Positions 494-11,788 of a stretch of 64,000 nt of DNA are shown here, one piece after another. The notes under the pieces are model-generated. The model was not told the origin of the DNA. It saw only the letters and a list, made by a program, of their open reading frames with translations, and ran no database searches. Position 1 is the stretch's first letter. Every line of letters starts with the position of its first letter. The translations under genes and the position numbers were made by a program. Origin of the DNA: Palleronia marisminoris. Lineage in GTDB: Bacteria > Pseudomonadota > Alphaproteobacteria > Rhodobacterales > Rhodobacteraceae. The stretch lies in assembly GCF_900172315.1 (NCBI RefSeq), contig NZ_FWFV01000002.1:62001-126000 (forward strand). The letters run 5' to 3'.

Positions 494-1009
494 TCACTCC
501 TCGTCGTCTTCGTCACCATCGAGGTAGTCCATCGGATCCCGGTCGGGATCGTAGTCGATCGCCGGGTCTGCGGGCGGCCGTTCGGTCGCCGTCGCGTGAG
601 CGTCGGGCTTCCAGAGGCGGAAGCTGTCGCCGCGCCCGGCGAAGACCACGGTATCGTTCGCGGAGATCCCCAGCTTGTCGCGCCCGCGAGCCGGAAGGAC
701 GATACGACCCGTATCGTCGAGGACGAGCTGCTGCGACTTCTCGTAGATTGCCTCCTCGAGCTGATTGCGGCGGGGATCGGACTTGGGCATCCGCCGGATC
801 TGCTTTGTGATCTTCTTGAGCCGCGCGAGGGTCATCCCCTCGAGGTAGGGCGTCCGCTCGTCGCCGAAGACCAGAAGGAAGGTTGCGGGGGTGCCTGGCT
901 CGCGGTCCTGGTGGCCTTGGTCGATCACTTTCCGGAAGTCGGCAGGAATGGAGAGACGCGCCTTGGCGTCGATCTTGTTCTCGTGTTGGCCGATGAACAC
1001 GTCGAACAA
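494..1009 (-). CDS. mraZ: Transcriptional regulator / division protein MraZ
   Basis: This 171-residue protein matches MraZ from its first residues (FIGQHENKIDAKARLSIPADFR), with the second SpoVT/AbrB-like repeat around residues 85-130 (VLDDTGRIVLPARGRDKLG). MraZ forms ring-shaped oligomers that bind repeats in its own promoter and regulate the dcw cluster. The start is read as TTG at 1009 because it is preceded at 8 bases by an AAGGAG ribosome site and because the next residues FDVFIGQHE are the conserved beginning. The C-terminal 30 residues are very acidic (about 10 Asp/Glu in the last 14), longer than the roughly 150 residues of enterobacterial MraZ. It is first gene of the leftward mraZ-rsmH operon and has an unusually long leader containing a terminator. 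Confidence 0.95.
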   Translation of the reverse strand: MFDVFIGQHENKIDAKARLSIPADFRKVIDQGHQDREPGTPATFLLVFGDERTPYLEGMTLARLKKITKQIRRMPKSDPRRNQLEEAIYEKSQQLVLDDTGRIVLPARGRDKLGISANDTVVFAGRGDSFRLWKPDAHATATERPPADPAIDYDPDRDPMDYLDGDEDDEE

Positions 1010-1469: not shown

Positions 1470-1834
1470 AAAAATTTCCGACCCGAATGTGGCGCAAATG
1501 AGGCCCCGCCCGACTGAACGCCGTGATCAGGGCCGCCACACGCACGGCTCGAGGCGCTTCAGAAGCGGTTTCCCCCGAATCCCGCGGCAGGTCCCATGAT
1601 TTCCCAATAAGCGGGGTGCTTCCGATTCCCCCACCCTTGGCGCGCGAAGGCCGCGTCCCGCAGATCAGACCGGAGACCTGACCTCATGAGGGGATGCGGG
1701 TGCAGTTAGCGGTCGCGGGGCATTGCGCGTGCTGCATAGCGGCATTGACGATGCCCCAGATTGTGCACTCGCAGCAAACGGCTATTTAGGGGTCAACGCC
1801 GGCGACGACGATGCCAACAAGAGGCCAGAATAGA
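1470..1834. other. Intergenic region between divergent mraZ leader and DUF1127 gene
   Basis: No gene is seen in these 365 bases. The right part must hold the promoter of the DUF1127-hairpin array transcript. A weak pair TTGTGC (1761-1766) and CTATTTA (1782-1788) is the best eye-level candidate and could suit a heat-shock-type sigma factor, which drives the related R. sphaeroides operon, but this is not secure. Confidence 0.3.
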
Positions 1835-2044
1835 ATGACACTGTCGAACATCCTTCACGTTCCCTTCGCAGAGAACCGTTTCGATGCGTTCCGCCAGGAA
1901 ATGCGTGCCCGTTACGGCGCCTGGAAGGTGTACCGCCAGACCCGCGACGAACTCGGCGCCCTCTCGGACCGCGAGCTCAACGACCTGGGCCTGCATCGCT
2001 CCGGCATCCGTGCCGTGGCTCTCGAAGCGGCCTACGGCAACTGA
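1835..2044 (+). CDS. ccaF1: DUF1127 small RNA-binding protein (CcaF1-like)
   Basis: A 69-residue basic protein whose C-terminal half is a typical DUF1127 domain (KVYRQTRDELGALSDRELNDLGLHRSGI). In R. sphaeroides the DUF1127 protein CcaF1 is encoded directly upstream of the CcsR small RNAs, is co-transcribed with them, binds RNA and helps their maturation. The same arrangement is present here: the first hairpin of the array begins about 10 bases after the TGA. The ATG at 1835 was preferred over 1811 because AAGAGG lies 10 bases before it and the extra eight residues look non-conserved. The mRNA is expected to be the 5' part of a long precursor that is cut into the small RNAs. The symbol is by analogy. 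Confidence 0.85.
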   Translation: MTLSNILHVPFAENRFDAFRQEMRARYGAWKVYRQTRDELGALSDRELNDLGLHRSGIRAVALEAAYGN

Positions 2045-2052
2045 TTTCCGAT

Positions 2053-2127
2053 TTCGGGCCGGGCGGACCTCCTCCCCCGCGCGTCCCGAACTAGCGGCGG
2101 CACCGACCTCCTCCCCGGTGCCGCCGC
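2053..2127 (+). ncRNA. CcsR-like small RNA unit 1
   Basis: First hairpin closes with TTCGGG (2053-2058) against CCCGAA (2085-2090). Second hairpin has a perfect 12-bp stem, GCGGCGGCACCG (2094-2105) against 2116-2127. Both loops are ACCTCCTCCC. The unit starts 9 bases after the ccaF1 stop. Confidence 0.8.
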
Positions 2128-2142
2128 CCCAAGAACAAGATT

Positions 2143-2212
2143 GCGAGCGCCTACCTCCTCCCGGGCGTGAGCATTCGGCGGCGACGTCCACCTCCTCCCG
2201 GACGTCGCCGCC
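2143..2212 (+). ncRNA. CcsR-like small RNA unit 2
   Basis: The first hairpin has a short CGCCT/GGGCG stem. The second has a perfect 13-bp stem, GGCGGCGACGTCC (2177-2189) against 2200-2212. Both show the invariant ten-base loop. Confidence 0.8.
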
Positions 2213-2221
2213 ACACGTGAC

Positions 2222-2294
2222 ATACGAGCACCCACCTCCTCCCGGGCGCCTCGTATTCGGCGACGACACCGACCTCCTCCCCGGTGTCGTCGCC
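2222..2294 (+). ncRNA. CcsR-like small RNA unit 3
   Basis: The first hairpin pairs ATACGAG (2222-2228) with CTCGTAT (2250-2256) plus an inner CACCC/GGGCG part. The second has a perfect 13-bp stem, GGCGACGACACCG (2259-2271) against 2282-2294. Confidence 0.8.
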
Positions 2295-2302
2295 ACAGAT
2301 TA

Positions 2303-2373
2303 CGCAGCGCCGACCTCCTCCCCGGTGCTGTGTTTCAGGCGGCGATACCTACCTCCTCCCGGGTATCGCCGCC
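2303..2373 (+). ncRNA. CcsR-like small RNA unit 4
   Basis: The first hairpin pairs CGCAGCGCCG (2303-2312) with CGGTGCTGTG (2323-2332) using G-U wobbles. The second pairs GGCGGCGATACCT (2338-2350) with GGGTATCGCCGCC (2361-2373), closed by a U-G pair. Confidence 0.8.
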
Positions 2374-2382
2374 GAACCTGAC

Positions 2383-2454
2383 ATACGGGCGCCGACCTCC
2401 TCCCCGGTGCACGTATCTGGCGGCGGCGCTCACCTCCTCCCGAGCGCTGCCGCC
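2383..2454 (+). ncRNA. CcsR-like small RNA unit 5
   Basis: The first hairpin pairs ATACG (2383-2387) with CGTAT (2412-2416) and GCGCCG with CGGTGC around the loop. The second pairs GGCGGCGGCGCTC (2419-2431) with GAGCGCTGCCGCC (2442-2454), one G-U wobble. Confidence 0.8.
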
Positions 2455-2462
2455 ACAACCGG

Positions 2463-2534
2463 ATGCGTAACGCCTACCTCCTCCCGGGCGTACGTATAGA
2501 GCGGCGACATTCACCTCCTCCCGAATGTCGCCGC
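2463..2534 (+). ncRNA. CcsR-like small RNA unit 6
   Basis: The first hairpin pairs TGCGT/ACGTA outside and CGCCT/GGGCG inside. The second has a perfect 12-bp stem, GCGGCGACATTC (2501-2512) against 2523-2534. Confidence 0.8.
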
Positions 2535-2543
2535 TACAAGATC

Positions 2544-2617
2544 AGCATACGCGCGCCGACCTCCTCCCCGGCGCACGTCAATGGCGGCGATGCCCACCTC
2601 CTCCCGGGCATCGCCGC
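2544..2617 (+). ncRNA. CcsR-like small RNA unit 7
   Basis: The first hairpin pairs GCGCCG (2553-2558) with CGGCGC (2569-2574). The second has a perfect 12-bp stem, GCGGCGATGCCC (2584-2595) against 2606-2617, and is followed by TTTTGTCTTT, so it ends the transcript. Confidence 0.8.
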
Positions 2618-2627
2618 TTTTGTCTTT
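2584..2627 (+). terminator. Rho-independent terminator of the hairpin array
   Basis: The fourteenth hairpin (12-bp GC-rich stem, ten-base loop) runs directly into TTTTGTCTTT. The array transcript thus ends 14 bases before the stop codon of the convergent uvrD gene. Read in the other direction no T-run follows, so it would not stop uvrD transcription. Confidence 0.85.
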
Positions 2628-2640
2628 CAGACCCTGAAAA

Positions 2641-5037
2641 TCAGAACGGGACGTCGCCTGCCTGCGCGGCCTCGACCAGGAAGCGGCCCAGGAGCTTCTT
2701 GGAGCCCGCCTTGTCGAAGGCGACGTCGATCTTGTCCCCCTCGAACGCCGTCACGGTGCCGTAGCCGAACTTCTGGTGGAACACCCGGTCGCCCTCCGCA
2801 AAGGCCGAGATCGCCTCGGCATCCACGACCATGTTGCGCTGCTCGCGCGGCTGGCTCATCGGGCGGCTCTGGCTGCGCGCCTGCATCCGCCGCCACCCCG
2901 GAGAGTTGTAGACATCCGCCCGGCTCGCCTTGTCATGCAGGTCCGACTGCTGGCTCGCCATGATCTGCGGCGAGGCGCTCGCCGCCATGCCGGCCGCACC
3001 GTAGCCGCCGCCATAGAGGCCCGGCGGCGTCAGAACCTCGACATGCGCCTCGGGCAACTCGTCGATGAAGCGCGAGGGCAGCGCCGATTGCCACTGTCCG
3101 TAGACGCGCCGGTTCGCCGCGAACGAGATCGTGCAGACCTCTTCGGCGCGGGTGATGCCGACATAGGCAAGGCGGCGCTCTTCCTCGAGGCCCTTGAGCC
3201 CCGATTCGTCCATCGACCGCTGCGAGGGGAACAGCCCATCCTCCCACCCCGGCAGGAAGACGGCGGGAAACTCGAGCCCCTTCGCCGCGTGAAGCGTCAT
3301 GATCGAGACCTTGGCCCCCTCGGCCTCGCTCTCGTTGTCCATGATGAGCGCGACGTGTTCGAGGAAGCCCTGAAGGTTCTCGAACCCTTCCAGCGCCTTC
3401 ACCAGTTCCTTGAGGTTCTCGAGCCGCCCCGGCGCGTCCGGGTCCTTCGCGTCCTGCCACATCGCGGTGTAGCCGGACTCGTCCAGAAGCGCCTCGGCCA
3501 GGGCGATATGATCGCCGTCGGGGTCGCGGACAGCGTCGTGCCACCGGGCGATGCCGTCAACCAGCACGCGCAATTCGGCCCCGCCCTTGCCGCCGAGCCC
3601 CTTGTCCTGCAGCAGGATCCGCGCGCCGTCGACAAGGCTGACGCCGTTGTCCCGCGCGGCGAGCTGGATTTTCTGCTGCGCCTTGTCGCCGAGGCCGCGC
3701 TTGGGCGTGTTCACGATCCGCTCGAAGGCGAGGTCGTCGTCGGGCGAGACGGCGAGGCGGAAATAGGCCATCGCGTCGCGAATCTCCATCCGCTCGTAGA
3801 AGCGGGGGCCACCGATGACGCGGTAGGGCAGCCCGATGGTCAGGAAGCGGTCCTCGAACGTGCGCATCTGGTGCGAGGCACGCACGAGGATGGCCATCTC
3901 GTCCAGGCTCATGGGCCGTAGCCCCCGCGTGCCCGCGGACATCGATTCGATCTCTTCGCCGACCCAGCGGGCCTCTTCGTCGCCGTCCCAGTGGCCGATC
4001 AGCCGGACCTTCTCGCCCTGCTCTTCCGCCGTCCACAGCGTCTTGCCGAGACGCCCCTTGTTGGCGTCGATGACACCGCTCGCGGCGGCCAGGATGTGCG
4101 GGGTCGAGCGGTAATTCTGCTCGAGCCGCACGACCTTGGCGCCGGGGAAGTCGGTCTCGAACCGCAGGATGTTGCCAACCTCGGCACCGCGCCAGCCGTA
4201 GATCGATTGGTCGTCATCGCCCACGCAGCAGATGTTCTTGTGCCCCTGCGCAAGTAGCCGAAGCCACAGGTACTGCGCGACGTTCGTGTCCTGGTACTCG
4301 TCCACCAGGATGTAGCGGAACCTGTTTTGATAACGCAGCAGCACGAACGGGTGCTCTTGGAAGATCGTTACCATGTGCAGCAACAGGTCGCCGAAATCGA
4401 CAGCGTTCAGCTCTATCAAGCGGCGCTGGTAGTAGTCATAAAGTTCTGACCCACGGTGGTCGAATTCACTCGCCTCGCTGGCCGGAACCTTCGCAGGCTT
4501 CAGAGCGCGGTTCTTCCAACTGTCGATCAACCCCAGTAGCATCCGGGGCGGCCAGCGCTTTTCATCGATGTTCTCGGCAACGATGAGCTGCTTCAACAGC
4601 CGCAACTGGTCGTCTGTGTCGAGGATCGTAAAGCTATCCTTGAGGCCCACCAGCTCGGCGTTCTCGCGAAGAAGCCTGGCGCAGATTGCGTGGAAGGTAC
4701 CCATCCAACGAACTGGTTCCCGTTGGTTGAAGGGAGTCTTTTCCAGCCGGCTCTTCATCTCCCGTGCCGCCTTGTTAGTGAAGGTCACAGCGAGAATCTG
4801 ATTTGCACTCGCGCGGCCTGTCTTCTGTAGGTGCGCGATTCGCGCCATCAGCGCCTTCGTCTTGCCTGTTCCCGCTCCGGCCAGGATCAACAGTGGGCCG
4901 TTGAGTGTCTCAACCGCCTCGCGCTGCGCGGAATTCAGGTCATCCAAATAGCGGTCAGGCTGCGCGCGCGCGGCGGCGGCGCGCTGCGACAGGCTGACCG
5001 CGTTCTCGAAGGCGTTGTCTTCGTCGTAACTCGTCAT
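2641..5037 (-). CDS. uvrD: ATP-dependent 3'-5' DNA helicase UvrD/PcrA
   Basis: A 798-residue superfamily 1A helicase with all motifs in order: Walker A (AGAGTGKTK, about residue 53), DEYQDTN with Walker B, GDDDQSIYGWRGA, LEQNYRS, TLHAAKGLEFP and EERRLAYVGITRA. A C-terminal Tudor-like module (HQKFGYGTVTAFEGDKIDVAF), typical of PcrA/UvrD and implicated in RNA polymerase contact, is present. It unwinds DNA in nucleotide excision repair, mismatch repair and replication restart. A GTTC-N7-GTTC SOS box lies 43 bases before the ATG, so LexA control is likely. The first third of the gene (about 4300-4760) is lower in GC (near 52-58 percent by hand count) than most of the rest (mostly 65-75 percent). 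Confidence 0.96.
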   Translation of the reverse strand: MTSYDEDNAFENAVSLSQRAAAARAQPDRYLDDLNSAQREAVETLNGPLLILAGAGTGKTKALMARIAHLQKTGRASANQILAVTFTNKAAREMKSRLEKTPFNQREPVRWMGTFHAICARLLRENAELVGLKDSFTILDTDDQLRLLKQLIVAENIDEKRWPPRMLLGLIDSWKNRALKPAKVPASEASEFDHRGSELYDYYQRRLIELNAVDFGDLLLHMVTIFQEHPFVLLRYQNRFRYILVDEYQDTNVAQYLWLRLLAQGHKNICCVGDDDQSIYGWRGAEVGNILRFETDFPGAKVVRLEQNYRSTPHILAAASGVIDANKGRLGKTLWTAEEQGEKVRLIGHWDGDEEARWVGEEIESMSAGTRGLRPMSLDEMAILVRASHQMRTFEDRFLTIGLPYRVIGGPRFYERMEIRDAMAYFRLAVSPDDDLAFERIVNTPKRGLGDKAQQKIQLAARDNGVSLVDGARILLQDKGLGGKGGAELRVLVDGIARWHDAVRDPDGDHIALAEALLDESGYTAMWQDAKDPDAPGRLENLKELVKALEGFENLQGFLEHVALIMDNESEAEGAKVSIMTLHAAKGLEFPAVFLPGWEDGLFPSQRSMDESGLKGLEEERRLAYVGITRAEEVCTISFAANRRVYGQWQSALPSRFIDELPEAHVEVLTPPGLYGGGYGAAGMAASASPQIMASQQSDLHDKASRADVYNSPGWRRMQARSQSRPMSQPREQRNMVVDAEAISAFAEGDRVFHQKFGYGTVTAFEGDKIDVAFDKAGSKKLLGRFLVEAAQAGDVPF

Positions 5038-11618: not shown

Positions 11619-11693
11619 GCGGGCGTAGCTCAGGGGTAGAGCATAACCTTGCCAAGGTTAGGGTCGGGCGTTCGAATCGCCTCGCCCGCTCCA
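11619..11693 (+). tRNA. tRNA-Gly (GCC), copy 1
   Basis: 75 bases with encoded CCA. The acceptor arms GCGGGCG and CGCCCGC pair fully, the discriminator is U, the anticodon stem-loop CCTTGCCAAGG gives anticodon GCC, and the T arm has GGGCG-TTCGAAT-CGCC. It reads GGC/GGU glycine codons, heavily used in this genome. Confidence 0.97.
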
Positions 11694-11713: not shown

Positions 11714-11788
11714 GCGGGCGTAGCTCAGGGGTAGAGCATAACCTTGCCAAGGTTAGGGTCGGGCGTTCGAATCGCCTCGCCCGCTCCA
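11714..11788 (+). tRNA. tRNA-Gly (GCC), copy 2
   Basis: This is identical over all 75 bases to the copy 95 bases upstream, including encoded CCA; the 20-base spacer and outer flanks are unrelated. The 3' end is 4 bases from the stop codon of the convergent adenine deaminase gene, so no separate terminator fits between them. Confidence 0.97.

Follow-up and report, generated by a model that had tools for sequence, protein, structure and literature searches.

The window analyzed here is a 64-kb stretch of DNA from Palleronia marisminoris. Between a divergent mraZ-like gene and a convergent helicase gene, it carries on its plus strand a promoter region with two dyads, a gene for a small DUF1127 protein, and a tandem array of fourteen hairpins that ends in a probable terminator. 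The features are listed below with the evidence for each in parentheses.

494-1009, minus strand: mraZ-like gene, divergent flank outside the operon (matches to NCBIfam MraZ models fall short of the cut-offs)
1730-1744, plus strand: upstream dyad TGCTGCATAGCGGCA, a PhaR-type operator candidate one base off CTGCN3GCAG (alignments, motif counts)
1760-1776, plus strand: second dyad ATTGTGCACTCGCAGCA, overlapping the presumed -35 region (alignments, motif counts)
1782-1787, plus strand: CTATTT, presumed -10 element (by eye from alignments)
1835-2044, plus strand: gene for a CcaF1-like small DUF1127 protein, 69 amino acids from the second ATG (PF06568, E = 4.5e-14)
2053-2090, plus strand: hairpin 1, loop 2067-2076 (loop motif, fold, unpaired probability)
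2094-2127, plus strand: hairpin 2, long stem, loop 2106-2115 (motif, fold, covariation)
2147-2168, plus strand: hairpin 3, short, loop 2153-2162 (motif, fold)
2177-2212, plus strand: hairpin 4, long, loop 2190-2199 (motif, fold, covariation)
2231-2246, plus strand: hairpin 5, shortest inner stem, loop 2234-2243 (motif, unpaired probability)
2259-2294, plus strand: hairpin 6, long, loop 2272-2281 (inside the Rfam ar14 match at 2218-2338; covariation)
2302-2333, plus strand: hairpin 7, short type with 11 pairs, loop 2313-2322 (motif, fold)
2338-2373, plus strand: hairpin 8, long, loop 2351-2360 (motif, covariation)
2389-2410, plus strand: hairpin 9, short, loop 2395-2404 (motif, fold)
2418-2455, plus strand: hairpin 10, long, loop 2432-2441 (motif, covariation)
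2470-2491, plus strand: hairpin 11, short, loop 2476-2485 (motif, fold)
2500-2535, plus strand: hairpin 12, long, loop 2513-2522 (inside the Rfam ar14 match at 2494-2621; covariation)
2553-2574, plus strand: hairpin 13, short, loop 2559-2568 (motif, fold)
2583-2627, plus strand: hairpin 14, long, loop 2596-2605, followed by TTTGTCTTT at 2619-2627 (stem, covariation, sequence)
2641-5037, minus strand: pcrA/uvrD-type helicase gene, convergent flank (profile matches, shared gene order)

The DUF1127 gene, which has a further in-frame ATG at 1811, lies directly upstream of the array on the same strand, and the first loop begins at 2067. Its PF06568 match bears out an earlier note on this DNA, which had placed such a gene ahead of the array. 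The same note described identical anti-Shine-Dalgarno (aSD) loops arranged in seven two-hairpin units, and both descriptions hold: all 14 loops, which lie within 2067-2605 and start at the loop coordinates given above, are exact copies of ACCTCCTCCC, and short-stem and long-stem hairpins alternate seven times. A scan of the whole 64 kb found no copy of the core CCTCCTCCC outside the array on either strand. Long stems have 12 to 14 uninterrupted pairs and short stems 3 to 11; hairpin 5 is absorbed into a larger fold in the MFE structure and is a hairpin in the centroid. A tandem-repeat search returned a period of 81 nt with 5.8 copies (71%). Linkers measure 7 to 19 nt 3' of long hairpins versus 4 to 13 nt 3' of short ones, ranges that overlap. 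Mean pairwise stem identity is 0.57 for the short and 0.70 for the long hairpins, while the loops are identical in 14 of 14. Because the loop stayed constant while the stems drifted, the long stems in a paired manner, the array copies are not simply recent duplicates, and either selection has apparently preserved each of them or homogenization has acted on the loop only. Hairpin 14 and the following TTTGTCTTT probably form a Rho-independent terminator, as the earlier note claimed: to the eye, a 13-pair stem followed by TTTGTCTTT makes this plausible. The automatic scan was silent at this position because it takes loops of 3 to 8 nt, and the terminator loop has 10 nt.

The 596-nt array RNA has a predicted folding energy of -320.6 kcal/mol versus -213.3 kcal/mol (SD 6.1) in 100 shuffles (z = -17.5), and the mean predicted unpaired probability per loop is 0.985 to 1.000 for all 14 loops. 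In the seven long hairpins of the window, a set with no selection on pairing, 90 of the 91 cells are paired, and both sides have changed in 8 of the 13 pairs; their covariation score of 0.582, versus 0.295 in shuffles, was reached by none of 500. The long hairpins, on whose seven stems this covariation was run, are real RNA structure. Long stems also covary in a set of 50 hairpins that includes relatives, in which the percentage paired is biased because its 43 rows from relatives were picked to have 11 or more of the 13 pairs. In 777 hairpins of the window and its relatives, helix positions with a Watson-Crick pair on either side hold 383 G.U and 44 A.C oppositions, which indicates that the plus strand is the RNA.

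The earlier note had assigned the locus to the CcsR/cuckoo RNAs and proposed a covariance-model search as a check, the lack of a match being one of its two refuting outcomes. That search returned a family match: Rfam RF02344 (ar14) exceeded its gathering score of 58.8 bits twice, with 62.4 bits at 2218-2338 and 61.8 bits at 2494-2621 (scores paired with stretches in the order given). Four further overlapping stretches of the array scored 57.5, 54.6, 53, and 40.2 bits, under the gathering score, and six matches over the array had E < 0.001. Together with the DUF1127 gene upstream and the CcaF1-CcsR1-4 anatomy, the two matches above the gathering score uphold the assignment. Among loci of the known CIN1 kind (CcaF1-CcsR1-4; cuckoo RNAs) this one is large, and its hairpins show the cuckoo/CIN1 trait of stems that vary beneath identical CCUCCUCCC-type loops. 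A match to the Rfam model on contig 27 (L007, 32.5 bits, below the cut-off) had no CCTCCTCCC in the matched stretch and was taken as chance. The cuckoo RNA family reportedly goes back to Reinkensmeier and Giegerich in 2015. As cited second-hand in passages of PMC4504443, the family resembles the window in its conserved loop motif and nonconserved stems but is defined by 2 to 4 hairpins per RNA, whereas the window has fourteen.

In R. sphaeroides, ccaF1 (DUF1127) is described in the cited passages of PMC10253847 as cotranscribed with CcsR1-4 from an RpoHI/RpoHII promoter, with RNase E processing that involves CcaF1 and a terminator, and such loci are called CIN1 there; a role of RNase E also appears in the cited part of PMC7866481. 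The window is like that operon in having a DUF1127 gene followed by tandem aSD RNAs, an end terminator, and one upstream promoter, but two PhaR-type dyads are found at its promoter, where RpoHI/RpoHII are reported for R. sphaeroides (PMC10253847, same passages). It also has seven units as opposed to four, and its kinship to the R. sphaeroides operon is judged from anatomy and from a gene order shared with other named Rhodobacteraceae. We take RS0680a of R. sphaeroides to be CcsR1. The cited part of PMC3927594 gives RS0680a two stem-loops with an aSD motif in each. NfeR1 of Sinorhizobium meliloti, the founder of alpha-r14 (RF02344), carries CCUCCUCCC in every loop on variable stems, and the model of its family matches the window above the gathering score; it silences ntrB through its three loops, an effect that is lost with a loop-mutant RNA (PMC10746234, cited passages). 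However, NfeR1 is a stand-alone RNA of 123 nt that, according to the same passages, has three loops and a promoter of its own, whereas the window has fourteen loops behind a DUF1127 gene.

The order mraZ/DUF1127/array/pcrA recurs in loci with 5 to 14 motifs (e.g., L047, L084, L092, L115, L128, and L157-L162). The named loci with this order are from Rhodobacteraceae and Rhodobacterales, L092 being from an unclassified alphaproteobacterium; on this basis the family shared by the window and the family genomes and arrays below is taken to be Rhodobacteraceae. A DUF1127 frame lies within 700 nt upstream of 33 of the 37 family arrays with at least three motifs, the exceptions being L165, L166, L192, and L196. 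Among the matches listed for named loci, such a frame lies upstream of 47 of 124 arrays with at least three motifs, so the RNA motif often occurs without a DUF1127 gene, and upstream of 26 of 32 arrays with at least five motifs (also among the matches listed). Many of the named arrays without the gene are rhizobial and have three or four motifs. Two loci, L082 and L140, each hold two successive modules of a DUF1127 gene and a short array. In the window, about 825 nt (1010-1834) separate the divergent mraZ-like and DUF1127 genes. The mraZ 5' untranslated region of R. sphaeroides yields the sRNA UpsM (PMC7866481, cited passage), and by analogy a long leader RNA may start within 1010-1834, back to back with the array operon.

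The earlier note stressed that there are seven units instead of four. The number seven is right, but it is not special, since array size varies and large arrays turn up repeatedly at its upper end. Neighboring motif pairs were found in 216 of 295 family genomes (own included), and at least 7 family genomes have 13 or more: the own genome and G300 (13 each), G047 and G135 (14 each), G019 and G079 (15 each), and G193 (25). These per-genome counts are of neighboring exact motifs with gaps of 20 to 45 nt, both strands summed, and the gap limit makes the loop numbers lower bounds (L162 has 14 motifs and 7 pairs). The arrays that were fetched carry 2 to 26 exact motifs, and the crude stem criterion applied to them undercounts hairpins with wider loops; a scan of named records gave at least 120 stretches, some of them in records from Streptomyces, Arthrobacter, and other groups. 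L185, the minus-strand array of G193, follows a DUF1127 gene and holds 26 motifs, which makes it nearly double the array of the window; it is mostly built of a 140-nt three-hairpin unit at 97% identity, while L162 has a 104-nt tandem unit at 93% identity. The units of L162 and L185 are recent copies, unlike those of the window. A motif pair is present in 12 of the 14 genomes of the genus; G004 and G005 (98 to 99% complete) have no loop-motif pair, and in these two either the array is absent or the loop is altered. The window array is in the upper tail of the size distribution and not singular, notable but not exceptional.

It is tenable, although doubtful in our view, that unit number is neutral and reflects slippage or unequal recombination, with two to four hairpins being enough. 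Motif number ranges from none to many within one genus, and the tandem copies in L162 and L185 are nearly identical. The window itself speaks against neutrality: its stems have diverged, yet its 14 loops are identical and its long stems remain paired. This stem-divergent, loop-constant pattern argues that copies have been kept, although homogenization of the loop only is possible. The relatives form a natural dose series (2 to 26 motifs, with many arrays of up to 14 in the same gene order), which makes an effect of unit number testable.

The most informative new signal at the locus is the pair of promoter dyads; the earlier note was silent on the promoter. When nine upstream regions from the same genus are aligned, two dyads and a -10-like element stand out as conserved ahead of the DUF1127 gene. 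The dyads are ~31 nt apart in the window promoter, which has TTGTGCA at 1761 and CTATTT at 1782; an automatic scan of the window promoter gave no match to a sigma-70-type promoter. The cited passages of PMC12542648 give the PhaR site of R. sphaeroides as CTGCNNNGCAG and that of S. meliloti mmgR as CAATTGTGCACCGCAGCATTA. The window promoter contains a copy of CTGCNNNGCAG with one mismatch, and its second dyad resembles the mmgR site save for one extra spacer base.

Motif counts place both elements upstream of DUF1127 genes well beyond the window. CTGCN3GCAG occurs in 26 and TTGTGCA in 32 of 40 family upstream regions (own included, two being from one genome, L202) versus 0 and 2 of the 37 full-length downstream controls, and among the matches listed for 48 named regions, the corresponding counts are 19 and 21, versus 1 and 1 in 39 full-length controls. 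Across 88 DUF1127 upstream regions, CTGCN3GCAG is present in 45 and missing from 43, compared with 16 occurrences (32 on both strands) in a background of 480,552 bases of the same loci outside the upstream regions; this count is an independent test because the motif was taken from the literature. TGCYGCANNGCRGCA and ATTGTGCANNYGCAGCA are present in 34 and 40 of the 88 regions versus 4 and 0 occurrences in the background, ratios that are not an independent test because some of the same data had served to define these motifs. The named and other genome sets may share species, and the 88 regions, the 777 hairpins, and the DUF1127 linkage counts are not fully independent. CTGCN3GCAG and TTGTGCA occur together in none of the regions titled with rhizobial genera or orders among the matches listed, and the dyad pair thus looks like a Rhodobacteraceae trait.

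The P. marisminoris genome encodes PhaR (PF07879 match; TIGR01848 above cut-off), and the sole exact TGCTGCANNGCAGCA in this genome lies between the divergent phaC and phaZ. With one mismatch allowed, the dyad pattern has 20 matches in the genome (both strands, the window's included) versus 4 for the reversed control, and several of the 20 lie inside genes and look like chance. The gene between phaC and phaR is called phasin-like from its position and from a Pfam match below threshold, and its promoter carries TGCCGCAGCGCGGCA and TTGCCGCAGCGCAG, ~29 nt apart. The window's upstream dyad, one base off the consensus, and the dyad of the phasin-like gene share the same departure (GCGG). Elsewhere in the genome (L239), a one-mismatch PhaR-type dyad lies ~90 nt before an aceE-type (pyruvate dehydrogenase E1) frame.

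PhaR keeps phasin and depolymerase genes repressed until it is titrated away by PHB, and it also represses mmgR (PMC12542648, cited passages). By analogy with these genes, PHB would release the DUF1127-array operon. We see an even chance that the DUF1127/aSD arrays of Rhodobacteraceae belong to the PhaR regulon, with a PHB-titrated repressor on two dyads around the -35 region, so that carbon storage would free a burst of identical ribosome-site-blocking loops whose dose is set by unit number. If this is true, the array is the posttranscriptional arm of a carbon-storage switch, and PhaR control would join the CcaF1-CcsR stress RNAs to PHB control, in parallel to PhaR over MmgR in Sinorhizobium. 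The dyads might instead serve another regulator, which we consider unlikely. Regulators besides PhaR also bind short GC-rich palindromes, and it is by sequence that the dyads are classed as candidate PhaR sites. The second dyad also has one spacer base more than the mmgR site as quoted in PMC12542648, but the R. sphaeroides PhaR site published there is CTGCNNNGCAG, the only exact TGCTGCANNGCAGCA of the genome falls between phaC and phaZ, and two such dyads with similar spacing precede the phasin-like gene. PhaR is thus our preferred candidate for these sites.

MmgR of S. meliloti, which is under PhaR/AniA, likewise has an aSD motif in the loop of an sRNA and a very similar PhaR site at its promoter, but it belongs to the alpha-r8 family, is Hfq dependent, and is 77 nt long, and the cited passages describe no array or DUF1127 neighbor (PMC7143759; PMC12542648). 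The link of PhaR to DUF1127/aSD arrays appears to be new. The R. sphaeroides ccaF1-CcsR paper (PMC10253847) contains no mention of PhaR, and a literature search, which missed key cuckoo, CcaF1, and CcsR papers, found among the papers listed no report that joins PhaR to CcsR, CcaF1, or DUF1127.

The loop, ACCUCCUCCC as RNA, repeats ACCUCCU of the 16S rRNA 3' end, adds CCC, and can pair with GGGAGGAGGU. The 16S model had no match in the P. marisminoris draft genome, and the tail was taken from relatives: of 15 genomes searched, GGATCACCTCCTTTCT was found in three, each from the same genus and with the full 16S end ACCTCCTTTCT, while in the other 12 the gene was missing or different.

We consider it likely that the locus is a CIN1-type operon that encodes a CcaF1-like protein and fourteen aSD hairpins, whose RNA would be cut by RNase E and block translation and which would be repressed by PhaR and released by PHB. 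One promoter would give a transcript with the CcaF1-like DUF1127 protein followed by the fourteen hairpins. RNase E, aided by the DUF1127 protein, would probably cut the linkers 3' of each long hairpin, as in CcsR1-4, and free about seven RNAs of ~80 nt with two loops each. By masking the purine-rich ribosome-binding sites of many mRNAs, the loops would block translation, and a higher unit number would mean more identical loops per transcript, for which the earlier note suggested dose-dependent silencing or sponging as a possible outcome. We infer that PhaR would repress the operon and that PHB accumulation, along with stress sigma factors as in R. sphaeroides, would release it. For the present organism, RNase E processing, the role of the DUF1127 protein, and silencing by the loops are proposed from published relatives. 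Blocking of the start site is the best-supported action because it was demonstrated for NfeR1 (PMC10746234, cited passages).

The array could also act as one long uncut RNA, a multivalent decoy of the 16S 3' end that captures, for example, a 16S-tail-binding protein or purine-rich RNA, with unit number tuning sponge capacity. ACCUCCU is indeed common to the loop and the 16S tail of the three same-genus genomes, array size is highly variable (up to 26 motifs), and a Caulobacter sponge RNA antagonizes four sibling aSD sRNAs (PMC12559287, cited passage). However, its relatives CcsR and NfeR1 work as individual small RNAs, with NfeR1 pairing at the start region (PMC10746234, cited passages), and the linkers 3' of long hairpins tend to be longer than those 3' of short ones, as expected from unit cutting. 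A decoy is therefore improbable, and processed, translation-blocking RNAs are the reading we retain. There is next to no chance that the opposite strand is the functional RNA, with loops showing GGGAGGAGGT that could titrate a CsrA-like protein: these loops contain GGA, which CsrA prefers in loops, but such a sponge was ruled out by the absence of any CsrA (PF02599) match in the genome, in a search that was positive in 3 of 14 control genomes, and by the G.U to A.C bias, and the DUF1127 gene and T-rich end are both on the plus strand.

Candidate mRNA targets were sought with the 8-nt loop complement GGAGGAGG, which lies 3 to 11 nt before an ATG at 23 sites in the genome versus 3 for the reversed control; 4 of the 23 are the array's own antisense. 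Eight sites, with 8 to 9 nt of complementarity, were judged by eye to be real gene starts (L212, L214, L215, L216, L217, L221, L230, and L234). NCBIfam names are available for seven of these: uppS, xanthine permease, malic enzyme, formate dehydrogenase gamma, a methanol/ethanol-family PQQ dehydrogenase that is XoxF-like by eye, atpG, and acetate-CoA ligase; L216 had no NCBIfam match. CcsR RNAs affect C1 metabolism, which makes two C1 genes attractive as targets. The PQQ dehydrogenase was rejected, the complement being just 5 nt in all three close homologs. For formate dehydrogenase gamma, the complement is 6 to 8 nt in 8 of 8 homologs (own included, best candidate start), which proves little because the last part of the preceding frame seems to extend over the site. 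Over the own-genome sites and close homologs checked, conservation gave no firm support to the predicted targets of the loop. Elsewhere in the window, two tandem tRNA genes with equal scores are found at 11619-11690 and 11714-11785.
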